NCBI RefSeq assembly: GCF_001586275.1
Contig: NZ_CP014545.1
Location: 956,501-1,020,500, forward strand
From: Sphingorhabdus sp. M41
Lineage (GTDB): Bacteria > Pseudomonadota > Alphaproteobacteria > Sphingomonadales > Sphingomonadaceae
Reading direction: 5' to 3'
Length of the DNA: 64,000 bases
How positions within the stretch are numbered: position 1 is the stretch's first letter; every line of letters starts with the position of its first letter. Below the pieces are notes generated by a model that was not told the origin of the DNA, did no database searches, and saw only the letters and a list, made by a program, of their open reading frames with translations. The translations under genes were made by a program, and so were the position numbers. Positions 2,362-27,528 of this stretch are shown here, piece by piece.

Positions 2362-3264
2362 ATGGAATGGCGAGGTAAGACCGCATTCATTACGGGCGGG
2401 GTGTCGGGAATCGGCTTCGGCATTGCCCGGGCCTTCAGCAATGCCGGGATCAAGCTCGTTCTCTCCTATCGCAACGAAGATTATCGCGAGCAGGCCGAGC
2501 GCTGGTTCATTGATCAGGGGCGCGTAGCACCCCGATTTGTGAAGCTGGATGTCACCGACCGCCAGCGCTTTGCCGAGGTTGCCGAAGAAATTGGCGACAT
2601 TCATATATTGGTGAACAATGCGGGGGTCAGCGTATTCGGTCCGACCGACGAAGCCAGCTATGCCGATTATGACTGGATCATGGGCGTCAATTTTGGCGGC
2701 ACGGTCAATGGACTGGTCTCCTTGCTGCCGGGGATGAAGGCGCATGGCGAGGGTGGCCATGTCGTCAATGTCGCGAGCATGGCAGCGTTTTGCGCAGGAC
2801 CGCAGGCAGGCATATATACGGCCAGCAAATTCGCGATACGTGGCTTGACCGAGAGCCTGCGATACAATCTGGCGCCTTATGATATCGGCGTCTCGCTAAT
2901 GTGTCCGGGGCTTACCAATACCAATGCCTGGGATAGTGCGCTCAAGCGGCCGGCCGGATTCGCCGAAAGCGGCTTCGCTCCTCCTGACCGGGATGAGCTG
3001 GAGAATTTCGGCAAGGCCTTCGATCTGGGCATGGAGCCGCTGGAAGTGGGTGAAAAGACGTTGCGCGGAATCGTAGAAAATCGCAGTTTGATATTGACCC
3101 ACCCGGATCATCGCGAGGATTTCGACGAAATATATCGCTGGATGGTTGATGCCCTGCCGGATGAACCGGTGCCCGAAGGCCGTGCCGAAATCGAGCGTCT
3201 GCGCCGGGAAGCCAATCGCGATGCCGAAGCGGGCATGCGTATTGGCCTGGATGATTTGACATGA
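2362..3264 (+). CDS. SDR dehydrogenase, LigD/LigL/LigN-like C-alpha-dehydrogenase
   Basis: 300 aa from the ATG at 2362, preceded by GAGAGGA; an upstream in-frame extension to 2227 would run into the divergent gene and was rejected. NAD-binding TGGVSGIG at residues 11-18, NNAG at 85-88, catalytic Ser139 and YTASK (Tyr152, Lys156) define a classical short-chain dehydrogenase. The stretch YADYDWIMGVNFGGTVNGLV and the long C-terminal tail (~300 aa rather than 250) are shared with LigD/L/N/O, which oxidise the alpha-hydroxyl of beta-aryl ether dimers to the ketone before glutathione attack. The downstream GST genes fit that role. Stereopreference cannot be read from sequence. Confidence 0.8.
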   Translation: MEWRGKTAFITGGVSGIGFGIARAFSNAGIKLVLSYRNEDYREQAERWFIDQGRVAPRFVKLDVTDRQRFAEVAEEIGDIHILVNNAGVSVFGPTDEASYADYDWIMGVNFGGTVNGLVSLLPGMKAHGEGGHVVNVASMAAFCAGPQAGIYTASKFAIRGLTESLRYNLAPYDIGVSLMCPGLTNTNAWDSALKRPAGFAESGFAPPDRDELENFGKAFDLGMEPLEVGEKTLRGIVENRSLILTHPDHREDFDEIYRWMVDALPDEPVPEGRAEIERLRREANRDAEAGMRIGLDDLT

Positions 3265-3283: not shown

Positions 3284-4759
3284 ATGACACCCGAAGGCGT
3301 TCTTATCAAAAATACCGACAAAATATGGATTGGCGGCGAATGGGTCCATGCTCATTCGAAACGCGAGATCGAGCTGGTGTCACCCAATAGTGAAGAAGTG
3401 ATCGGTTCCGTCGCCGAGGCCGACGAAGCGGATATGGATGCAGCGGTCGCGGCGGCGCGCTTTGCTTTTGATGAAGGCCCCTGGAGCCGAATGCAGCCGC
3501 AAGAACGCATTGCGCTGCTCAAGAAAATGGCAGTACATCTGCACGGACGAACCGAGGAAATTGCGAAAGCGTGGACTTTGCAAATGGGCGGACTCGCCAG
3601 TTTCGCCGGACCAATGACCGGCGGTTCTACGATGAATTTCGACCAGATCATTGCCATGGCGGAGAAATTTGAATTTGTGGAGCAGCGGCCATCCCCGGTT
3701 GTTCACACCGCCTTGATTGCACATGAACCGGTCGGAGTCGTTGCCGCCATCGCTCCCTGGAACGGGCCCTATGGTATCATGCTCAACAAGGTCGCCTATG
3801 CGCTTGCCGCCGGCTGCACGTTGATCATGAAGCCGTCGCCGGAAACGCCGCTGGAGGCCTATATTATCGCCGAAGCCGCCGAAGCGGCAGGCCTTCCTGC
3901 CGGTGTTGTCAATCTCGTCTGCGGTCACCGCGATGCGAGCGATCATCTGGTTTGCAATCCGGGAGTCGACAAGGTCAGCTTTACCGGATCGACCATCGCC
4001 GGCAAGCGCATCGCCAGCGTCTGCGGTGAGAGAATTGCGCGCTGTACGCTGGAACTGGGCGGCAAGTCTGCCGCGATCATTGCCGATGACTTCGATATCG
4101 ATGCAGCCGCGCAGATGCTGACCGGCACCATCACGATGATGAGCGGCCAGGTCTGCGCCATGCTCAGCCGCGTGCTCGTGCCAAAGGCTCGCCATGACCA
4201 ACTGGCCGAGGCAATTGCCGGCGAAATGAAAAAGGTCGTGATCGGTCCATCGGACGATCCCGCAACACAGCTCGGCCCACTTGCCATGAAACGGCAGCTG
4301 GAGCGCGTCGAAATGTATATCGGGGAAGGCAGGAAAACCGCCGATCTTGTCACTGGAGGCGGACGGCCAAGCCATCTTAATCGCGGCTATTTCATCGAAC
4401 CGACGCTTTTCGCCAATGTCGACAACGCATCGCGGATTGCACAGGAAGAGATTTTTGGTCCGGTGCTTTGCCTCATCCCCTTCGAGGATGAAGAGGATGC
4501 GATCCGCATAGCCAATGATTCCAGCTATGGATTGAACGGGTCGGTGCTGACCAATGATGTGGACACGGCCTACCGGATAGCGCGCCGGATCCGGACCGGT
4601 GCAGTCGGACAAAATGGTATGAGGATGGACTTTGGCCTTCCCTTTGGTGGCTTCAAACAGTCGGGCATCGGCCGCGAAGGCGGGATCGAAGGCTTGCTCG
4701 GCTATCTAGAAACCAAGACCATATTGCTCGATGGCACACCATCCAGCTTTTCGCCTTGA
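3284..4759 (+). CDS. NAD(P)-dependent aldehyde dehydrogenase
   Basis: 491 aa, full-length ALDH superfamily. Visible are the Rossmann segment FTGSTIAGKRI, the general-base motif LELGGKSAA, the nucleophile motif SGQVCAML (Cys in place, flanking residues unusual: Met-Leu instead of Ala-Gly) and the C-terminal EEIFGPVLC. It should oxidise an aldehyde, possibly an aryl or phenylpropanoid aldehyde formed in the dimer pathway, to the acid in the cytoplasm. It follows the LigD-like SDR by 19 bp with a clear GAGAAGGAAA ribosome site, so the two form an operon. The substrate is inferred from context only. Confidence 0.9.
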   Translation: MTPEGVLIKNTDKIWIGGEWVHAHSKREIELVSPNSEEVIGSVAEADEADMDAAVAAARFAFDEGPWSRMQPQERIALLKKMAVHLHGRTEEIAKAWTLQMGGLASFAGPMTGGSTMNFDQIIAMAEKFEFVEQRPSPVVHTALIAHEPVGVVAAIAPWNGPYGIMLNKVAYALAAGCTLIMKPSPETPLEAYIIAEAAEAAGLPAGVVNLVCGHRDASDHLVCNPGVDKVSFTGSTIAGKRIASVCGERIARCTLELGGKSAAIIADDFDIDAAAQMLTGTITMMSGQVCAMLSRVLVPKARHDQLAEAIAGEMKKVVIGPSDDPATQLGPLAMKRQLERVEMYIGEGRKTADLVTGGGRPSHLNRGYFIEPTLFANVDNASRIAQEEIFGPVLCLIPFEDEEDAIRIANDSSYGLNGSVLTNDVDTAYRIARRIRTGAVGQNGMRMDFGLPFGGFKQSGIGREGGIEGLLGYLETKTILLDGTPSSFSP

Positions 4760-4774
4760 CGGGTGGCTCGAGTA

Positions 4775-4793
4775 TAGTAAGTAAAGCATACAA
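4775..4793 (-). promoter_or_regulatory. 19-bp operator copy B
   Basis: Read on the minus strand: TTGTATGCTTTACTTACTA. It keeps the invariant TTGTATG half-site and the AC-N-A end; the second half-site is weaker than in other copies. It sits 27 bp upstream of the first GST gene, so the beta-etherase genes probably have their own promoter although the ALDH gene ends just before. Confidence 0.6.
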
Positions 4794-4820
4794 ATAAACA
4801 GCCTTGGGAGAGGCCCCTAT

Positions 4821-5594
4821 ATGAACGATGTTACCCTTTACCATTGGGAACCCAATGCCAATTCGGGAAAACCGATGCTCGCATTGATGGAAAAAGACGT
4901 GGCCTTTGACAGCCACTATCTCGACCTCCTGAATTTTGATCAGCATGATCCGAAATATCTCGCGATAAATCCGCAGGGCACGATTCCGGCGATGACCCAT
5001 GGCAAACTGGTGCTCACCGAATCGACCGCGATCATGGAATATGTCGACGAGGCTTTTGACGGCCCCCGCCTGATGCCAGAAGACGCGAAAGAACAATGGC
5101 GCATTCGTTGGTGGATGAAGTTCATGGACCAGTGGCTGGCACCCAGCTTCTCGATGTTCGGCTGGAAATTTTTCGTCGGGCCCAATGCGCGCGAACAGCG
5201 TGGTGAAGAAGAGCTGGAAGCCGCAATCAACCGCATTCCGCTACCCGAGCGTCAGGTGGCTTGGCGCAAGGCAGTCTACGGACTGTTCAGCGATGAGGAA
5301 ATGGCCGAATCAGGGCGCCGCATTGGCGTGGGTATTCGCATGCTTGAGGACGAGCTGGGCAAAAGAGAATGGCTCGCCAGCGACAATTATAGCCTCGCCG
5401 ATGTGAACGGCTTCAACCTGGCTTATGCGTTGCCCCTGTCGCAGCCGGAGCTTTCCAATGATGAACTGACGCCCAATATCATGCGCTGGTTGCGCGCAAT
5501 CTATGCGCGCCCGGCAACGAAAGCCTGCTGGGCGATGGGCAAGACCGACATGGTGAAGCGTGTCGACATATTAGAGCAGGATTATATCGCATGA
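4821..5594 (+). CDS. Glutathione S-transferase, LigF-like beta-etherase family
   Basis: 257 aa, the length of SYK-6 LigF. N-terminal thioredoxin fold with HWEPNANSGKPMLAL, the DxLNFDQHDPKYLAINPQG segment, the cis-Pro motif TIPAM and the glutathione-binding TESTAIMEYVDE; the C-terminal helical domain contains SLADVN. LigF-type enzymes attack the beta carbon of an alpha-keto beta-aryl ether with glutathione and release the phenol. Conserved FDQHDPKYL...NPQG matches the FEQHSDWF...NPxG region of LigF. Its stop overlaps the next GST start by 4 bp, suggesting the two products are made together and may form a heterodimer. Family assignment is confident; substrate inferred. Confidence 0.82.
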   Translation: MNDVTLYHWEPNANSGKPMLALMEKDVAFDSHYLDLLNFDQHDPKYLAINPQGTIPAMTHGKLVLTESTAIMEYVDEAFDGPRLMPEDAKEQWRIRWWMKFMDQWLAPSFSMFGWKFFVGPNAREQRGEEELEAAINRIPLPERQVAWRKAVYGLFSDEEMAESGRRIGVGIRMLEDELGKREWLASDNYSLADVNGFNLAYALPLSQPELSNDELTPNIMRWLRAIYARPATKACWAMGKTDMVKRVDILEQDYIA

Positions 5595-6349
5595 GCATGA
5601 CCCTATATCACGGCCAGCCCAATGGTCCGTCGCTTACCGTATTGGCGGCATTGTTCGAAAAAGGCTTGGATGCCGACCTGCAATTTATTGATCTCGCGGC
5701 TGGTGAACGCCACGCCCAGCCTTGGGCCGGACAGACGGAAGTTGCGATGAGCATCGAAGGCGAAGGCCCGGTATTGCTGGTCGATGGCGAGGCAATGGCC
5801 GACAGCGTGTTTGTCGGCTGCTACCTTGATGACATCGGCAGCGGGCCGTTGCTGCGCCCGACTGACCCTTATGCTCGCTGGCAGGTAATGATGTGGTGCC
5901 GCCAGATGATCGAACGGCTGGCACCGGCTGCGGGTTATCTCGGTATCCATGAAGCGTCGGCACCGGACATCAGCGATGACGTGCTGGCCGCGATCCAAAG
6001 CGAAGACTTGCGCGCGCGCTGGGCGGATTGGCGCAGCGGCAAGTTCGAGGACGAAAAGCTTGAGGATTCGCGGGTCAAGGTGGCTCAGGCGGTCGAGAAA
6101 TGCGAAGCCCAACTCGATGGCCGGGACTGGCTGTTCGGCGATTTTTCGCTGGCCGATCTGGAAACCTATGCCTGGCTTGCTGCTATGGCGGATATCGTGC
6201 CGGATGCCTTTGTCGACGCGCCTCGGACAGCGGACTGGCTGGCAAGGATGAAAGCACGGCCATCAATCGCGAAAGCGCTCGATCTGGCGACTACGGATAA
6301 GCCGGAAAAAGCCTGGGCCCCCGGCCCTGAAATAAATCGCTGGGGATAG
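5591..6349 (+). CDS. Divergent glutathione S-transferase-like protein, possible partner subunit
   Basis: 252 aa. It starts like a GST (MTLYHGQPNGPSLTVLAALFEKG) and keeps a C-terminal SLADLETYAWL helix, but the loop that normally reads NPxGxVP is replaced by a longer segment (WAGQTEVAMSIEGEGPVLLV) and the usual ES/TS glutathione contact reads ADSVFVG. The glutathione site is therefore altered. It overlaps the preceding LigF-like gene (ATGA). Novosphingobium has a heterodimeric beta-etherase (BaeA/BaeB) made from two adjacent GST genes; this pair could be the same arrangement. Alternatives are a GST with a different substrate or a non-catalytic subunit. Confidence 0.7.
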   Translation: MSMTLYHGQPNGPSLTVLAALFEKGLDADLQFIDLAAGERHAQPWAGQTEVAMSIEGEGPVLLVDGEAMADSVFVGCYLDDIGSGPLLRPTDPYARWQVMMWCRQMIERLAPAAGYLGIHEASAPDISDDVLAAIQSEDLRARWADWRSGKFEDEKLEDSRVKVAQAVEKCEAQLDGRDWLFGDFSLADLETYAWLAAMADIVPDAFVDAPRTADWLARMKARPSIAKALDLATTDKPEKAWAPGPEINRWG

Positions 6350-6372: not shown

Positions 6373-8475
6373 ATGCGAACGCCATTATTGTTGATATCTG
6401 CCGCGCTGGCACTGGCCGGTTGCGAGAAGGGCATGGATCTGGATGCGCCGGCTGCTATCACTGCGGAGAAGCTTGAGCAGGCTGCGACCAATGATCAGGA
6501 CTGGTTGAGCTACGGCCGGACCTATGACGAGCAACGCCACTCTCCGCTGGCCAGGATCAACACCTCCAATGTCAAGGATCTGGGCCTCGCATGGTTCGCC
6601 GACATGGACACCGCGCGCGGACAGGAAGCGACGCCGATCGTTATTGACGGCAAGATTTATATCACCACCGCATGGTCGAAAGTGAAGGCTTATGATGCCG
6701 TAACCGGGAAGCCTCTATGGGAATATGATCCTGAAGTGCCCGGAGAAACGGCCGCGAATGCCTGTTGCGATGTCGTCAATCGCGGACTTGCGGCCTGGGG
6801 TGACCGGCTATATTTCGGTACTTTGGATGGCCGGCTTATCGCACTGGACCGGGCTACCGGCAAGCAAGTCTGGTCGAAGCTGACCGTTCCGGCAGGAGAA
6901 CCTTATACGATCACCGGTGCGCCGCGGATCATCGACGGCAAGGTGATTATCGGAAATGGCGGCGCGGAAATGGGCGTGCGCGGTTATATCACCGCTTATG
7001 ATGCGGAAGACGGCGAAGAGCTCTGGCGCTTCTATACTGTACCTGATCAGCCCGGCAAGAATACAGCAGCACATCTGAAAGCCGCCGAAGCGACCTGGAA
7101 AGGCAGGTGGTGGGAGCTTGGCGGCGGCGGAACCGTCTGGGATGCCATGGCTTATGATCCCGAGCTTGATCTGCTTTATATTGGTGTCGGCAATGGCTCT
7201 CCGTGGAACCAGTCTTATCGCTCACCCGGTGGCGGCGATAATCTCTATATCAGTTCCATCGTGGCCTTGCGTCCATCGACCGGTGAATATGTCTGGCATT
7301 ATCAGACCACGCCGGGAGAAACCTGGGACTTTACTGCGACCCAGCATATCATGCTGGCCGATCTTGAGATCGACGGCAAGGCCCGCAAGATACTTATGCA
7401 GGCGCCGAAAAACGGCTTCTTCTATGTTCTCGACCGGGCGACCGGTGAATTGCTGTCGGCGAATAATTATGTCGCGACCAACTGGGCGACCGGCATCGAT
7501 ATGAAGACCGGTCGGCCAATCGAAAATCCGGAAGCGCGGATCGACCAGACGGGCAAGCCGTTTGTGGTGACGCCTGGCCCGGGTGGTGGGCATAATTGGC
7601 AACCCATGGCCTATAATCCAGAAGCCGGACTGGTCTATATCCCGGTACAGGAAGCAGCCTTTCCCTATATCCCGGAAGCGAACTGGAAAAGTGCTACCAT
7701 CGGCTTCAACACCGGCATGGATTTTGCGGCTGGCGCCATGCCTGCTGACGCGAATATTCGCGCAGCCTCTCTGGCGGCAACCAAGGGGGCCTTGGTCGCC
7801 TGGGATCCGGTTGCACAAAAGGAGCGCTGGCGGGTGAAGTTTCAGGGACCGTGGAACGGTGGCCTCTTGTCGACAGCTGGCGGTCTGGTCTTTCAGGGCA
7901 ATTCGGCTTCGAGATTTGCGGCCTATAATGCGGTAAGCGGCGAAATGCTGTGGGATACGCCGGTTCAGACCGGTATCATGGCACCGCCGGTCACCTATAG
8001 CGTGAATGGCGAACAATATGTCGCGGTGCTTGCAGGCTGGGGCGGTTCCTGGGCTTTGTCTCCTGGAATTTTCTCCGAGGTTGGCGGCCCGGTTCGCAAT
8101 ATCTCGCGGTTGCTGGTCTATAAATTGGGTGGCACAGCGAAGCTTCCTCCCGAGACTCCATTGTCGCGGCTCCCGATTGATCCGCCGGCTGAAAAAGGTA
8201 CTGCCGATCAGATCTCTGCAGGTGGGCGTCTGTTTGGTCGCTTCTGCGGTGTTTGCCATGGCGATGCCGCATACGGCAGTACGCTGCTACCCGACCTGCG
8301 TCGCAGCGGATTATTGCACGACCCTGACAGCTGGAAAGCGGTCGTTTTCGACGGGATTCTCAAGGACAACGGCATGGTCAGTTTCAAGGAAGTAATATCT
8401 GCAGACCAGGCCGAAGCGATCAGGCATTATATCATCAGACGCGCCCACGAAGACAAAGCTCTGGGCGATAAATAG
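6373..8475 (+). CDS. PQQ-dependent dehydrogenase with C-terminal cytochrome c (quinohemoprotein), lipoprotein
   Basis: 700 aa. The N-terminus has a lipobox (LAGC, Cys17), so the mature protein is a membrane-anchored periplasmic lipoprotein rather than a soluble one. The eight-bladed propeller has the adjacent cysteines NACCDV (about residue 130) that stack on PQQ, several W-motif blades, and [10 protein letters not shown] carrying the catalytic Asp. A cytochrome c domain follows with CGVCH near residue 625 and a likely Met ligand in DNGMVSF. Such enzymes oxidise primary alcohols and feed electrons to the respiratory chain. Sitting inside the GST operon, it may oxidise the gamma-alcohol of a lignin dimer or a benzylic alcohol; that is inference. 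No PQQ synthesis gene is in the window. Confidence 0.9.
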
Positions 8476-8489
8476 GACAGGAAAAGCAC

Positions 8490-9152
8490 ATGGGAATTAC
8501 TCTATATACCGCCGCAACGCCAAATGGCTGGAAGGCATCTATCACGCTTGAAGAATTGGCATTGCCCTACGAACTCAAGACTATTTCCTTCGACGAGAAT
8601 GAGCAGAAATCCGACTGGTATTTAAAGATCAATCCCAACGGCCGGATCCCGGCTCTGGTTGATGACGGCTTCCCCATTTTTGAATCGGGAGCGATCATGA
8701 CTTATCTGGCGGAAAAAACCGGCAAGCTCATGCCGACAGACCTGAAGGGAAAGACCAAGGTCATGCAATGGCTGATGTTTCAGATGGGCGGTGTTGGGCC
8801 GATGATGGGTCAGGCCAATGTATTCTTCCGCTATTTCCCGGAGAAGATTCAACCGGCTATTGATCGCTACCAGCGTGAAACCCGGCGATTGCTGGAGGTG
8901 CTCGATGGTCATCTGGCCAATAATGAATATCTCGCGGACGACTATTCGATCGCCGATATTGCCAACTGGTCCTGGGTGCATTCCTATCAATGGTCCGGCG
9001 TAAACATCGAAGGTCTCGATCATCTGGCGCGCTGGATTGATCTCGTGGGTGCTCGTCCAGCAGTCCAGCGTGGCCGTGACATTCCGACACCGCGTGACCG
9101 GGCCGCCGAAGAGGCTGCTGCCGCAAAGACCGGCCCCCAAATGCTGTCATAA
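8490..9152 (+). CDS. Nu-class glutathione S-transferase, candidate glutathione lyase of the beta-ether pathway
   Basis: 220 aa. [43 protein letters not shown] and the helical-domain [10 protein letters not shown] are characteristic of the YfcG/YghU (Nu) class. In Novosphingobium aromaticivorans a Nu-class GST strips glutathione from GS-beta-ketones after the LigF/LigE step, replacing LigG of Sphingobium. Finding a Nu-class enzyme in the same operon as a LigF-like GST, and no LigG-like gene nearby, fits that route well. It is the last gene of the 4821-9152 operon, 14 bp after the PQQ dehydrogenase. Confidence 0.85.
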
Positions 9153-10844: not shown

Positions 10845-11717
10845 ATGCCGATCGATTTAAGCAAGATCAAAGCCATTGATGTACACGTTCACGCGGAAGT
10901 GTCATGCCACGACCCTGAAGATCCGGTGATGGGCAAGTTTTTCGATGCCGCCAGCGCTTATTTCAAAGCCCCGCGCGAGCGTCCGAAAATCCCGGAAATC
11001 ATCGAGATATATCGCGAGCAGCAAATTGCCTTCTGCCTGTTCACCGTCGATTGCGAAAGCGGGATAGGTGCGAAGCGGGTGTCCAATTACGAGATCGCCG
11101 AATATGCCGCCAAGAATGACGACATATGCATGGCCTTTGCCTCGATCGATCCGCACAAGGGAAAAATGGGCGCACGCGAAGCCCGTGACCTGATTGAAAA
11201 TTACGGGGTCAAGGGCTTCAAGTTCCACGGCATCATGCAGGATGCCCATCCCGCCGACCGCGTTGCCTATCCGATTTACGAAGTGATCGCCGAATATAAA
11301 TTGCCGGCGATTTTCCACACCGGCCATTCGGGCATGGGCACCGGAATGCCGGGCGGTGGCGGTGTCCGCCTGAAATGGGGTCAGCCGATGCTGATCGATG
11401 ATGTCGCGGTGGACTTTCCGGATATGAACATCATTCTCGCCCATCCGAGTTGGCCCTGGGTCGACGAAAGCCTTTCGATGGCTTTGCACAAGGACAATGT
11501 CTTCATCGATCTGTCCGGCTGGAGCCCGAAATATTTTCAGCCGCAGATCATTCAATATGCCAACGGACAGTTGCGCAAGAAGATGATGTTCGGTTCCGAT
11601 TTTCCGCTCATCCATCCGCAAAAATGGATTGATGCGGCAAAGACTGTCGGTTTCAAGGACGAAGTGATGCCGGGGATCATGAAAGATAATGCTGCAAAAT
11701 TGCTGGGGCTGACGTGA
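10845..11717 (+). CDS. Amidohydrolase family protein, CouO-like (beta-keto acyl-CoA hydrolase candidate)
   Basis: 290 aa. Metal motifs IDVHVHAEV (HxH, residues about 10-12), FHTGHSGMG, LAHPSWPW and FGSDFPL show a complete mononuclear or binuclear amidohydrolase_2 site. This compact type, with a HxH rather than the EEA start of the LigW group, is commonly annotated as 4-hydroxyphenyl-beta-ketoacyl-CoA hydrolase after CouO of Rhodococcus, which performs a retro-Claisen cleavage. Its neighbours are an ALDH and an SDR; a role in shortening a beta-keto side chain is plausible but inferred. The stop overlaps the next start (GTGA). Confidence 0.75.
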   Translation: MPIDLSKIKAIDVHVHAEVSCHDPEDPVMGKFFDAASAYFKAPRERPKIPEIIEIYREQQIAFCLFTVDCESGIGAKRVSNYEIAEYAAKNDDICMAFASIDPHKGKMGAREARDLIENYGVKGFKFHGIMQDAHPADRVAYPIYEVIAEYKLPAIFHTGHSGMGTGMPGGGGVRLKWGQPMLIDDVAVDFPDMNIILAHPSWPWVDESLSMALHKDNVFIDLSGWSPKYFQPQIIQYANGQLRKKMMFGSDFPLIHPQKWIDAAKTVGFKDEVMPGIMKDNAAKLLGLT

Positions 11718-12498: not shown

Positions 12499-13260
12499 AT
12501 GACGCTCAAATATTATCATGCGGAACCCGCCGCAAACTCGCTGAAATCGATGATTCCGCTCAAGGAAAAAGGGCTGGAATTCGAAAGCATCTATGTCGAT
12601 CTGCACAAGTTCGAACAGCATAGCGACTGGTTCATTGCGATCAATCCAGAAGGGCAGGTCCCGGTCCTCGATCATAATGGCGCGATCATCACCCACACGA
12701 CCGTGATCAACGAATATCTGGAAGATGTGTTTCCGGAAATCCCGCTTCGTCCGCGCGATCCGGTCGGTGCGGCGCGGATGCGTTACTGGAATAAATTTGT
12801 CGACGAGCATGTAACCAACCAGGTGTCGATGCACGGCTGGCACCGGATGGTGGGTGTGATTGCGCGCAATATCGAAAGCGGTGAATTTGAAAAATTGCTC
12901 GAGAAAATTCCGCTTCCGCACCAGCGCGAGAAATGGAAGACCGCACGGTCCGGATTCAGCGAGGCGGATCTGGCGGAATCGACGCGCAAGATCATCTTCG
13001 CCTGTGACAAGGTTGAAGAACAACTGGCGGATGGCCCCTGGCTGGTCGGCGACATGTACACGACCGCCGATATCAATTTTTACAGCCATTGCGGCATGAT
13101 GGTCAATCGCATGTTCCCGGAACTGGAAGTGGACGATAATTACCCGCGTCTTGCCAACTGGCGGGAACGGATGGAGGCGCGCCCGGGTGTCAAAGCGGCA
13201 CTGGAAATGCCCGACCACACCAATCCAGAATTGAGAACCTTCACGGGTCATGCGAAATAG
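12499..13260 (+). CDS. Glutathione S-transferase, LigF-type beta-etherase
   Basis: 253 aa from the ATG at 12499; the longer frame starting at 12259 lies inside the SDR gene and was rejected. The N-terminal half tracks SYK-6 LigF closely: ANSLKSMIPLKEKGLEFESI, then DLHKFEQHSDWF, INPEGQVPVL, THTTVINEYLEDVFPE and LRPRDP. LigF has serine-threonine (ESTVICEYLEDVFPE) where this protein has THTTVINEY, so one glutathione contact differs. The helical domain carries LPHQREKWKTARSGF. Expected reaction: glutathione-dependent, stereospecific cleavage of a beta-aryl ether ketone. It is nearer to LigF than the GST at 4821. Eight bases after the SDR stop. Confidence 0.85.
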   Translation: MTLKYYHAEPAANSLKSMIPLKEKGLEFESIYVDLHKFEQHSDWFIAINPEGQVPVLDHNGAIITHTTVINEYLEDVFPEIPLRPRDPVGAARMRYWNKFVDEHVTNQVSMHGWHRMVGVIARNIESGEFEKLLEKIPLPHQREKWKTARSGFSEADLAESTRKIIFACDKVEEQLADGPWLVGDMYTTADINFYSHCGMMVNRMFPELEVDDNYPRLANWRERMEARPGVKAALEMPDHTNPELRTFTGHAK

Positions 13261-14975: not shown

Positions 14976-16385
<1,410 letters not shown>

Positions 16386-17755: not shown

Positions 17756-18658
17756 CTATATGGCGTGCTTGGCAGCTTCCCTTGCATCATCATAGCTTTT
17801 GCGCCGGAATTTCTCAAACTCGACACGCTTTTCATAGCCGGGGTCGTTCGGATAATCTTTGAAGTCACTCATATAAGTATCGAACAATGCAGCCAGTTCT
17901 TCCTTGTGCTCAGGATGCGAGAAAATATACATGCGGTTATCGCGCATGCCATCCAAGACGCGCTCGCCAATCACGTCGGGTTCCATTCCGAAATCATGAA
18001 ACTCCGCCAGCCGCTTGACATTTTCATGGTCCACCGGCTTGGCACCGTCCATCAATTCCGTGGGACGAATGTCGTCACTGGCATAGATATAGGATTTCAC
18101 CAGTGCCGGGCAAAGAACCGAAACGCCGATGCGGTGCTTGGCGAGGCTGCAGCGCAGGGATTCGCTCAATCCGCGGACCGCAAATTTTGAAGTATTATAG
18201 ATGCCGGGCGATCCGCTGGCCTGCCATCCTGCCATTGACGAAGTATTGACAATATAGCCACCATTGCCCGCCTCGATCATCCGCGGGACAAAGGTCATGA
18301 CGCCGTTAATAGGGCCATTCAGATTGACGCCCATCACCCAGTCCCAGTCAGAATAGCTCGAATCCTCAATGGTTTGGAACAGGTTTACGCCAGCATTGTT
18401 GAAGAGCAAAGAAACCGGACCAAATTGGGCTTCGACCTTGTCGGCCGCTTCGGCCATGGCTTCGCGGCTGGCAACGTCGACCTGCACGCCCATGACCTCA
18501 TTATTGTCGAGCGTCGCCAGCGCCTTGTCGATCGCATCCTGCCTGATGTCCGCAATCGCAACCTTGCAACCTTGGGCGAGCAGCGCCCGGACGATACCGA
18601 TACCGACACCATTGGCACCGCCGGTGACAAAGGCGGTTCTACCTGCAAAATCGATCAT
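17756..18658 (-). CDS. SDR dehydrogenase, LigD/LigL/LigN-like C-alpha-dehydrogenase
   Basis: 300 aa. TGGANGVG near residue 12, NNAG, and YNTSK define the SDR; YSDWDWVMGVNLNGPINGVMTFVPRMI is very close to the LigD segment DFDWIIGVNLNGVINGMVTFVPRMI, closer than in the paralogue at 2362. The C-terminus is extended to ~300 aa as in LigD. It should oxidise one stereoisomer of the alpha-carbinol of a beta-aryl ether. Its start overlaps the stop of the next paralogue by 4 bp. Having two adjacent, non-identical copies fits the SYK-6 situation, where LigD/LigO and LigL/LigN split the stereoisomers. Confidence 0.85.
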   Translation of the reverse strand: MIDFAGRTAFVTGGANGVGIGIVRALLAQGCKVAIADIRQDAIDKALATLDNNEVMGVQVDVASREAMAEAADKVEAQFGPVSLLFNNAGVNLFQTIEDSSYSDWDWVMGVNLNGPINGVMTFVPRMIEAGNGGYIVNTSSMAGWQASGSPGIYNTSKFAVRGLSESLRCSLAKHRIGVSVLCPALVKSYIYASDDIRPTELMDGAKPVDHENVKRLAEFHDFGMEPDVIGERVLDGMRDNRMYIFSHPEHKEELAALFDTYMSDFKDYPNDPGYEKRVEFEKFRRKSYDDAREAAKHAI

Positions 18659-19563
18659 GCTTTCAACTCCTTCTGGCGGGCAATTTCATCGGCCCAGATC
18701 GGGCTGTTGAACAGCATCGCAAATGTCTTCTTATATTCCTCATTCTCCGGCAGGTTAGCCGGAACGGAGGCAATCATGGCATTGGCGCGGTCGGTGACGC
18801 CTTCCAGAAATTCGCTGTGCGTCAGAATATAGAGCTCATCGTCCAATATGCCGCGCAGCACCCGTTCGCCGACTTCCTCCTTGGTCTGATATAGGTGGAA
18901 GAGATTACCGCCGTCCTGCCGTCTTTTGTCCGCTTCGGCATAGCCGGTTTCCGACAGTTCTTCCGGTCGCGTCTCGCCGGCATCGGCAATATTCGATTGC
19001 ACCGCTCCCGGACAGAAGGCGGAACAAATCACGCCGCGGCTTTCCAGTTCCGGACGCATACACTCCATCATCGTGACCAGCGCTGCTTTTCCGGTCGAAT
19101 AGATTGTGGTCCCGCCGACCGGAACAATGCCGGACATCGAGCAGGTGTTGATGATATGGCCACCTTCGCCATGCGAAAGAATGCGCGGCAATAAGGTTGT
19201 GACACCATTGATCGCGCCGCCGACATTGACGTTCATCACCCAGTCCCAATCGGCAAAGGTCGCCAGTTCGGTCGGGCCAACCACAGCCACGCCGGCATTG
19301 TTGCAGAGAATATGGATTTTCCCGAACCTGTCTTCTGCAGCATCGGCCGCCTTGGTGAAATCGTCGCGATTGGTTACGTCGAGCTTGATCGCCAATATCT
19401 TGTCGGGCGATCCGAGTTCCTCTTTTGCTTCTGCAAGATGATCATCGCGAATGTCGGCGACGACAACATTCATGCCTGCGCCAAGAAGTGCCTTGGCAAT
19501 GCCAAGCCCTATGCCGCTCGCGCCGCCGGTAACAAAGGCAGTTTTGCCTTGCAGATTCTGCAT
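18655..19563 (-). CDS. SDR dehydrogenase, LigD/LigL/LigN-like C-alpha-dehydrogenase
   Basis: 302 aa from the ATG at 19563, with GAGAGGGAAA upstream; the longer frame to 19665 would enter the operator and was trimmed. TGGASGIG, NNAG, a Ser in NTCSMSG and YSTGK are present. The segment FADWDWVMNVNVGGAINGVTTLLPRIL groups it with the other two LigD-type proteins of this window. First gene of the leftward operon SDR-SDR-VOC behind operator E. Probably acts on a different stereoisomer from its downstream neighbour. Confidence 0.85.
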   Translation of the reverse strand: MQNLQGKTAFVTGGASGIGLGIAKALLGAGMNVVVADIRDDHLAEAKEELGSPDKILAIKLDVTNRDDFTKAADAAEDRFGKIHILCNNAGVAVVGPTELATFADWDWVMNVNVGGAINGVTTLLPRILSHGEGGHIINTCSMSGIVPVGGTTIYSTGKAALVTMMECMRPELESRGVICSAFCPGAVQSNIADAGETRPEELSETGYAEADKRRQDGGNLFHLYQTKEEVGERVLRGILDDELYILTHSEFLEGVTDRANAMIASVPANLPENEEYKKTFAMLFNSPIWADEIARQKELKA

Positions 19564-26058: not shown

Positions 26059-27528
26059 TTAAGCCGCGAGCCCGATGTCTTCGGCATTGGCCCAGTTGCC
26101 ATGCAGTCCGAAGCGCATGCGGATCGGGAGCTTGATGGTCGCGATCGGGCCCTTGTCCACTTGCTGCGCATCAAAGAGCAGCAAGTCGCTGCGCTGTTCT
26201 TCCAGCCGGTTACAGATCATGACGATCCAGCCGTCGCCTTCGGGCGCGCTTTTGCTGCGCGGAATGAAACAGGGTTCCTGCAAGGATGACACCGGCCCGC
26301 ACCACCAATGCTGTTCGGCGCCGGTTTCCAGATCCTTGTGGAAAAGACAGTTCATCAGCAATCCACCGGCACTGCCACCTTTCAGCTCCACCGGACGCTT
26401 CATGTCCATTTCCAGCATCCAGCCGTGGCGATGTTTCAGTCCGGCAACGCGATCATCGATGCGCGGAAATTCGCCAGCCGTGTCGGTTAGCCGGGTGATG
26501 CTGTCAAATTCATCTCCGTTGGACGCCATATCAACCGTCCAGCGGGTGAGATAGCTCATCGCTTCCATGCCGTTAAACGGTTCGCCATGCACATCGGGGA
26601 AGAAGGGGAACATATTGTTCTTGGCTTCGGGCGTGTCGAAATGGATTTTCGTGCCTTCCTGATAGGCATTGAGGACATGGCTGGCGAAGCAATTGTCACG
26701 CTTGAACCAGCGGATATCGTCTGCTGTTGCGCCTTCGCGGCGCGGCAACACGCCGAGATAGACCGGCATCGTCGTGTCAAAGCCGAAATGCGGCAGGCCT
26801 TTTTCAAGCCTGTCCCAGCTGCCGATCGACGGCACGATATGAAACAGCGCATAATCTTCGGTGATCGCGAAGTCGTGCATCATGCAGTAATAAGGCGCCT
26901 TGAACCAGATTTCCCGAATCAGTTCGCCTTCCGGCGTCACTTCGTAAAAGGTGCAATCATCGGTGCACAGTCCGGAAGCCGCATAACCAAAGGCGATCAT
27001 ATTGCCGGTGGCCGGATCGATTTTCGGGTGCGCGGTAAAGGTCTGGCCGGTCATCTTGTCATTGAACCAGGTATAGCCATCGGTTTCCATCGTGGCCGGG
27101 TCCATGACAAGGGCAGGGGAATCTTCCTTCAGTGCATAAAGCTTTCCGCCGTGAATCCAGGCATTGGTGTTGGCGGTGCCACGAATTTCGCCTTTCACCT
27201 CTTCGTCATCGGTGAGCGGATTGCGGTAGGCTCCGAACATCGCCTTTCCGGCCTCATTCTCGATCTTCCATTTGTCCGTTTTCGCCCAGCGCTGACGAAA
27301 ATCGCACTGACCGTCGTGGATATGGAAACGCGTGATCATTCCGTCGCCATTGAAGGAAATATCATCATCGAGTCGCGGCGGAAATTGGGGGTCTGGCTGA
27401 ACCCGGAAAAAAGCGCCATTGAGTTCGGGGGGGATAACGCCTTCATGAACCAAATCGACTATGTCGGCCTCAATTCTTGACGGACTGTTGAATCCTGTGA
27501 AGTTTAGCGTGTCAGGGAAATTGGCCAT
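26059..27528 (-). CDS. lsdD: Lignostilbene alpha,beta-dioxygenase (NOV1/LsdD-type carotenoid cleavage oxygenase)
   Basis: 489 aa from the ATG at 27528 (MANFPD, as in NOV1 MAHFPD); the upstream TTG at 27546 is rejected. The four iron-binding histidines fall at residues 167 (TAHPKID), 218 (CMMHDF), 284 (CFASHVL) and 476 (GLHGNW), and the residues that bind the 4-hydroxyl of the stilbene, Tyr101 and Lys134, are both present at the NOV1 numbering. Sequence agreement with NOV1 as I recall it is very high along the whole length. The enzyme splits a hydroxystilbene into two vanillin-type aldehydes with O2. Divergent from a MarR gene across operator F. Confidence 0.95.
   Translation of the reverse strand: MANFPDTLNFTGFNSPSRIEADIVDLVHEGVIPPELNGAFFRVQPDPQFPPRLDDDISFNGDGMITRFHIHDGQCDFRQRWAKTDKWKIENEAGKAMFGAYRNPLTDDEEVKGEIRGTANTNAWIHGGKLYALKEDSPALVMDPATMETDGYTWFNDKMTGQTFTAHPKIDPATGNMIAFGYAASGLCTDDCTFYEVTPEGELIREIWFKAPYYCMMHDFAITEDYALFHIVPSIGSWDRLEKGLPHFGFDTTMPVYLGVLPRREGATADDIRWFKRDNCFASHVLNAYQEGTKIHFDTPEAKNNMFPFFPDVHGEPFNGMEAMSYLTRWTVDMASNGDEFDSITRLTDTAGEFPRIDDRVAGLKHRHGWMLEMDMKRPVELKGGSAGGLLMNCLFHKDLETGAEQHWWCGPVSSLQEPCFIPRSKSAPEGDGWIVMICNRLEEQRSDLLLFDAQQVDKGPIATIKLPIRMRFGLHGNWANAEDIGLAA

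Follow-up and report, generated by a model that had tools for sequence, protein, structure and literature searches.

The bond that BaeAB enzymes cleave, in one of its mirror-image forms, is very common in lignin. Two questions about these enzymes have been left open in print, namely why a non-catalytic subunit is needed and by what route an enzyme resembling LigF acquired the opposite stereospecificity. A pair of overlapping GST genes of Sphingorhabdus sp. M41 lies in the 64,000-nucleotide stretch analysed here (contig NZ_CP014545.1, positions 956,501 to 1,020,500 of the forward strand; hereafter the window). The second subunit of the pair offers two short, directly testable targets, a C-terminal tail and a glutathione site that appears to be re-specified. 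A first-pass annotation, made from the sequence alone, had proposed a heterodimeric beta-etherase; its main idea is correct and is already in print for relatives of the pair.

BaeAB is a heterodimer in Novosphingobium aromaticivorans (Saro_2873/Saro_2872), PP1Y and Sphingobium xenophagum, and all three enzymes cleave beta(R)-MPHPV stereospecifically, the S. xenophagum enzyme taking beta(R) and not beta(S) (Kontur, PMC6369299). In N. aromaticivorans, BaeA or BaeB alone is inactive; the A:N14A substitution lowers kcat about 20-fold and raises Km 12.5-fold, and B:S14A has no effect (PMC6369299).

In the window, baeA (GST1; 4821–5594, forward strand, 257 aa) is predicted to encode the catalytic subunit of a BaeAB-type beta-etherase, and baeB (GST2; 5591–6349, forward strand, 252 aa) its non-catalytic partner. 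The two frames do overlap, as annotated, by the ATGA at 5591–5594 (forward strand), in which the start of baeB overlaps the stop of baeA, and translational coupling may be inferred from these four bases. The LigF-like nature assigned to GST1 is also borne out, LigF (4xt0) being the best solved relative in sequence searches of both GST1 (E 2.2e-44) and GST2 (E 2.4e-17). A scan of contigs with GST1 returned 141 relatives, of which the best 80, 66–98% identical, were used; these 80 did not include the N. aromaticivorans BaeAB, and the reference comparison was with S. xenophagum (locus L076), which is the species, and not necessarily the strain, of the enzyme tested by Kontur. Against this locus the window BaeA shows 76% identity (415 bits) and BaeB 61% (296 bits), and both subunits, measured against this pair, thus exceed the numbers that Kontur uses to define BaeAB (>50% identity, >200 bits; PMC6369299). 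Identity, gene order, overlap and active-site residues together mark the pair, at the level of sequence, as orthologues of BaeA and BaeB, which is more than the resemblance first suggested. Features shared with the known enzymes include gene order, overlap, subunit sizes, Asn14/Ser15 in BaeA and a Ser14 without Asn in BaeB, as well as a cluster that also contains a LigF-type GST. BaeA is also generally the better conserved subunit (Kontur, PMC6369299), and the same is true here, where BaeA is closer to the window than BaeB in 75/75 loci.

In 79 of the 80 loci the gene immediately downstream of the GST1 relative is a GST2 relative, so the pairing is not due to chance; the remaining locus (L056) stops at a contig end. 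Overlap is the rule (60/80 loci), the offset between the genes being -4, as in the window, in 34 loci, -1 in 25, -7 in 1 and 0 in 1. The remaining offsets are +1 (12 loci), +2 (1), +12 (2) and +19 (1), and the last three junctions belong to L109 (cut by the contig end and given as +26), L047 (one frame) and L056 (no data). The start codon taken was the one nearest to the aligned GST2 start, other choices shifting some of the +1 cases, and under these start codons at least 17/80 loci are without overlap. This is more than in the set of Kontur, in which "all but one" of the BaeAB gene pairs overlap (PMC6369299).

Four of the 79 paired loci are atypical. L055 and L109 are cut by the contig end, and in L070 (6554–7123, Novosphingobium sp. 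ST904) BaeB is shortened by a frameshift that may be real or a sequencing error. In L047, a metagenome contig, baeA and baeB form one frame of 537 aa (4562–6172), either a natural fusion or an assembly error; by eye, the single frame rests on one TA dinucleotide more than in L035. As one metagenome contig with an extra TA and a possible assembly error, it was set aside as evidence of dimerization. Another fusion candidate, L072, was rejected on finding a TAA stop between the genes. In the residue counts that follow, the BaeA rows (79 loci and the window) leave out the fused frame of L047, and the BaeB rows everywhere leave out L056, L055, L109 and L070; BaeB counts over 77 rows comprise 76 loci and the window, and those over 76 rows (75 loci and the window) also omit L047.

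BaeA Asn14-Ser15 (4860–4865, forward strand) are kept in 80/80 rows, and from the Kontur mutants are proposed to be the activator of the glutathione thiol and a substrate-binding Ser. In BaeB the equivalent pair is Pro13-Ser14 (5627–5632, forward strand), in which Pro replaces the catalytic Asn and Ser is kept (77/77 rows). The Asn column holds Pro in 61, Ala in 14, Phe in 1 and Asn in 0 of 76 BaeB rows; by contrast with the Pro13 of the window, the commoner residue here (61/76), Kontur reports Ala. The BaeB of L076 also carries Pro13, and this residue would therefore be compatible with an active pair if L076 encodes the protein tested by Kontur.

For LigF, the glutathione site comprises the active-site Ser, close to the thiol, and eight named contacts (PMC4777856, in which LigF residue numbers are one lower than those of Kontur). 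Five of these nine columns are kept in BaeB (Ser14 76/76, His41 73/76, Asp/Glu71 76/76, Ser72 69/76 and Trp144 76/76). Asp71-Ser72 (5801–5806, forward strand) stand at the gamma-glutamyl contact pair, which is Glu-Ser in LigF (PMC4777856); column 71 is Asp in 39 and Glu in 37 of 76 rows, and column 72 Ser in 69 and Ala in 7. The four replaced columns are near-fixed (Arg40 75/76, Glu58 75/76, Gly59 76/76, Leu140 74/76). The first-pass annotation was right that the NPxGxVP loop is missing from GST2, which at the aligned positions reads SIEGEGPVL from residue 54 (5750–5776, forward strand). This stretch is a signature of the BaeB family (G57 74/77, E58 75/76, G59 76/76, P60 74/76). Its claim that the usual Ser contact is lacking does not hold, Ser14 and Asp71-Ser72 both being present; what is missing is the catalytic Asn. 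In BaeA, too, three of the nine positions depart from LigF (Thr54, Ile55 and Arg144, each in 80/80 rows).

The nine BaeB columns have a mean entropy of 0.24 bits vs 1.31 bits for all columns, and none of 20,000 random nine-column sets was as low; when the seven N-terminal-domain columns were compared with draws from that domain only, 39/20,000 sets were. For BaeA the corresponding results were 6/20,000 in the free draw and 217/20,000 in the domain-restricted one, all these figures being descriptive, as the sequences compared are related. Decay of the BaeB site was rejected, because the replaced residues are near-invariant and the columns far more conserved than average. Judged from these alignments, the site is instead a distinct and conserved version, re-specified and under selection, that does without the catalytic Asn. 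The description of a "degenerate glutathione site" therefore stands for the loss of the thiol-activating Asn and of the loop's NP, and fails for the rest, with five of the nine residues kept and four replacements near-invariant; EGEGPVL is a signature loop and not decay, and the wording needs to be changed. The Kontur mutants, by analogy, fit a conserved BaeB site without the catalytic Asn. They also agree with the earlier suggestion that one subunit may be structural, although the enzyme measured was that of N. aromaticivorans.

Both proteins are predicted to adopt the GST fold. AlphaFold2 models of the single subunits reached pLDDT 95.6 and pTM 0.93 for BaeB (52 rows) and pLDDT 92.9 and pTM 0.90 for BaeA (36 rows, the LigF-type GST of the window among them). 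Of the solved structures, LigF is closest to both models (BaeB, Z 26.0, 227 residues at rmsd 2.1; BaeA, Z 29.5, 237 residues at rmsd 2.1). Identity to LigF is 39.5% for BaeA and 29.0% for BaeB over aligned columns, and 37% and 27% in the structure alignment. The LigF class cut-off quoted by Kontur is about 40% identity (PMC6369299), and BaeA, at 39.5%, falls just under it and BaeB, at 29.0%, below it. For BaeA, the 37–39.5% found here compares with "<36%" in Kontur, obtained by other methods (PMC6369299). Among the best 60 of 185 matches to BaeA and all 31 matches to BaeB, no chain other than LigF is named as a beta-etherase, and LigE is not among them. LigF of SYK-6 (PDB 4xt0) is a homodimeric beta(S)-etherase that shares the Asn-Ser pair with the window BaeA; unlike LigF, the window BaeB has neither the Asn nor the NPxGxVP loop. 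It also carries a C-terminal tail.

This tail, WAPGPEINRWG-COOH (6314–6346, forward strand), is near-invariant to its last residue. In GPEINRWG, the Gly, Glu, Arg, Trp and final Gly are present in 77/77 BaeB and the Pro, Ile and Asn in 76/77; three residues before this octapeptide stands Trp (71 BaeB) or Phe (6). Residues 245–252 have a mean entropy of 0.04, vs 1.32 for all columns (76 rows), the lowest of all 8-residue segments, and the next-lowest non-overlapping segments start at residues 56 (the EGEGPVL loop) and 5 (a strand and turn leading toward Ser14). There are 63 distinct 33-base tails among the 77 genes, and since the codons vary in this way the constraint acts on the protein. The ends of BaeA are not conserved, and the LigF-type neighbour (12499–13260) has no BaeB-type tail. 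When a DNA pattern for GPExxRWG followed by a stop was searched in 296 genomes of the order, to which the search was confined, it occurred at 15 sites in 14 genomes, and the reversed control pattern at one site. Twelve of the 15 sites are the ends of BaeB genes, in all 12 genomes with a match to the BaeB alignment below E 1e-100; the other three are two BaeB-like genes in divergent GST pairs (G189 contig 8 and G223 contig 8) and a baeAB remnant (G241). The motif thus picked out such pairs in the genomes searched.

Neither GPEINRWG nor EINRWG was found in the literature searched; the alignment in Fig. S4 of PMC6369299, which lies beyond that search, would contain the tail. The main text of that paper has a single instance each of "C-terminal" and "C terminus", which refer to the LigF domain and to a tag on NaLigE, and the word "tail" is absent. 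As far as literature searches reach, only the tail adds to what has been published.

The tail is a candidate reason why BaeB is needed. In the BaeB model, only the blocks at residues 241–250 (81) and 251–252 (44) fall under 90; chain ends often score low, and this confidence by itself proves nothing. Because the tail is conserved yet weakly placed in the monomer model, the model suggests a contact with something absent from it, most simply BaeA. Alternatively, the tail may have a role within BaeB itself, in stability or in plugging its own pocket. On a bolder proposal, which we hold tentatively and consider more doubtful than probable, the tail (W/F-x-P-G-P-E-I-N-R-W-G-COOH) would be the working part of the non-catalytic subunit, docking on BaeA at or near the active site and supplying a pocket wall or lid through which the LigF-like fold takes the beta(R) and not the beta(S) ether. 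If so, BaeB would be a dedicated stereo-selector chain, and its tail a simple marker for this whole class of GST heterodimers.

Taken as a whole, the pair is very probably a BaeAB orthologue for beta(R)-ether cleavage, with BaeA as the catalytic subunit and BaeB as a specialised non-catalytic partner. BaeA and BaeB are predicted to fold as LigF-like GSTs and, by orthology, would pair into one A:B heterodimer, in which Asn14 of BaeA would activate the glutathione thiol and Ser15 help to bind the substrate. Glutathione would then displace the aryl ether from the beta-carbon in keto-ethers of the beta(R)-MPHPV type, yielding guaiacol and beta-glutathionyl-HPV, a reaction demonstrated with the enzymes of N. 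aromaticivorans, PP1Y and S. xenophagum (PMC6369299) and expected for that of the window. BaeB, having Pro13 in place of the Asn, would take no part in the etherase chemistry, and is probably needed for the folding of BaeA and the presentation of the beta(R) isomer, as suggested by Kontur (PMC6369299). The strong conservation of its glutathione-site residues and tail argues that BaeB has specialised and not decayed.

The same conservation would also suit a heterodimer of the BaeAB type that in fact acts on a different ether or thioether derived from lignin, with BaeB showing GST activity in its own right on that substrate. Kontur left open such an activity on another substrate (PMC6369299), and the low entropy of the glutathione site, with Ser14, His41, Asp/Glu71, Ser72 and Trp144 kept, is what it would lead one to expect. 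However, the thiol-activating Asn is absent from 76/76 BaeB, the efficiency of BaeB on beta(R)-MPHPV is estimated at <0.3% of that of BaeA (PMC6369299), and B:S14A is without effect, so that own activity of BaeB seems unlikely. Quite improbable, too, is a plugged BaeB, in which the conserved pocket holds the C-terminal tail of the subunit and not free glutathione. Site and tail are both near-invariant, Arg40 (75/76) replaces the Gln that anchors the glycine of glutathione in LigF, and the neighbour of Trp144, Arg143, is conserved in 75/77; these arginines would suit the carboxylate of the C-terminal Gly. Against plugging stand the model confidence of only 44 at residues 251–252 and a divergent relative in G223, which keeps the tail with the loop IAPSGLVPVL.

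That the genes encode two independent GSTs merely sharing an operon, each an active homodimer, agrees with the prediction of both as complete GST folds. It is nevertheless highly improbable in view of their pairing in 79/80 loci, their orthology to a shown heterodimer and the missing catalytic Asn of BaeB; the divergence of BaeA and BaeB is also correlated (r 0.74 over 75 loci), as shared ancestry alone would make it.

For a BaeAB-type beta(R)-etherase the surroundings are apt, as they appear to form a lignin-dimer island. A third GST (12499–13260, forward strand) is of the LigF type (LigF 4xt0, E 1.4e-57; 45% identity to LigF over aligned columns) and a predicted beta(S)-etherase, which would take the beta(S) isomer. 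It lies about 6 kb downstream of the pair, with a PQQ dehydrogenase, a Nu-type GST, an aldehyde dehydrogenase, an amidohydrolase and an SDR between. The keto substrate would be made by C-alpha-dehydrogenase-like SDRs, of which one (18658–19560, reverse strand) has C alpha-dehydrogenase 4ya6 as best solved relative (E 1.7e-60); for the other (2362–3264, forward strand) 4ya6, 4yae and 4y98 rank second to fourth, after 3ioy, an SDR without a named function. A vanillate/3-O-methylgallate O-demethylase (14985–16385, forward strand; 5x1i, E 2.7e-214), which we take to be LigM-type, adjoins an MTHFR-family protein and a formyl-transferase/ACT protein. Aldehyde dehydrogenases and amidohydrolases also occur in the cluster, and a carotenoid-oxygenase family protein (26059–27528, reverse strand; PF03055) is, at a guess, a lignostilbene-type dioxygenase.

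The PQQ-dependent alcohol dehydrogenase with a cytochrome c domain (6373–8475, forward strand; TIGR03075 over the NCBIfam cut-off, PF13442) and the amidohydrolase (10845–11717, forward strand; PF04909) are the most widespread beside baeAB of the neighbours tested. Full flanks, which reach 6 kb and miss genes farther out, were available for 58 of the 80 loci; in these, relatives of at least 50% identity were found for the PQQ dehydrogenase in 43, the amidohydrolase in 35, the LigF-type GST in 10 and the Nu-type GST in 6. A term search of the available text of the pathway papers PMC11837543 and PMC12997858 returned neither "PQQ dehydrogenase" nor "amidohydrolase".

The Nu-type GST (8490–9152, forward strand) has 6tum, the PA1623 GST, as its best solved relative (E 1.8e-91). 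It was rejected as the best candidate for the NaGSTNu orthologue of the genome, because a Nu-class GST encoded elsewhere (L144) matches 5uun, which we take to be NaGSTNu, far better (E 2.2e-117 vs 9.6e-39), 5uun there ranking after E. coli YghU. A LigE was not noticed among 18 proteins of the genome checked by eye, a non-exhaustive set; one of 263 aa (L112) matches 4yam, named Beta-etherase and presumably LigE, with E 1.2e-8, behind many other GSTs. The LigE beta(R)-etherases, presumably of a GST class other than that of the window pair, cleave the stereoisomer predicted for this pair (PMC6369299).

Divergent BaeAB-like pairs were observed in three genomes (L147 in G189, contig 8; L148/L007 in G065, contig 159; L153 in G223, contig 8), and may form a second subfamily with another substrate. 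Their BaeA-like partners keep WEPNANSGKP and are, in G189 and G065, about 55% identical to the window BaeA. The BaeB-like partners are 33–35% identical to the window in G189 and G065, and all three, including that of G223, end in GPExxRWG. In a hand alignment the G189 protein (33%) has Ala at the Ser14 position and keeps the tail. The loop of the G223 relative is nearer the usual one, so loop and tail are not strictly linked. A short frame near position 89816 of G241, contig 7 (L155) runs from the beginning of BaeA straight into the end of BaeB and is apparently a remnant of baeAB left by an internal deletion.

BaeB of at least 50% identity was present in 6 of the 117 genomes searched, that of the window included, and in 2 of the 32 genomes of its genus (G000–G031), some of which are incomplete; the trait is patchy in the genus, by loss or transfer. 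Among the best 30 of 229 matching records in a search of 72,556 plasmid records, 28 reach at most 31% identity, and the two BaeB-like matches (60.5% and 52.9%) are both on large sphingomonad replicons.
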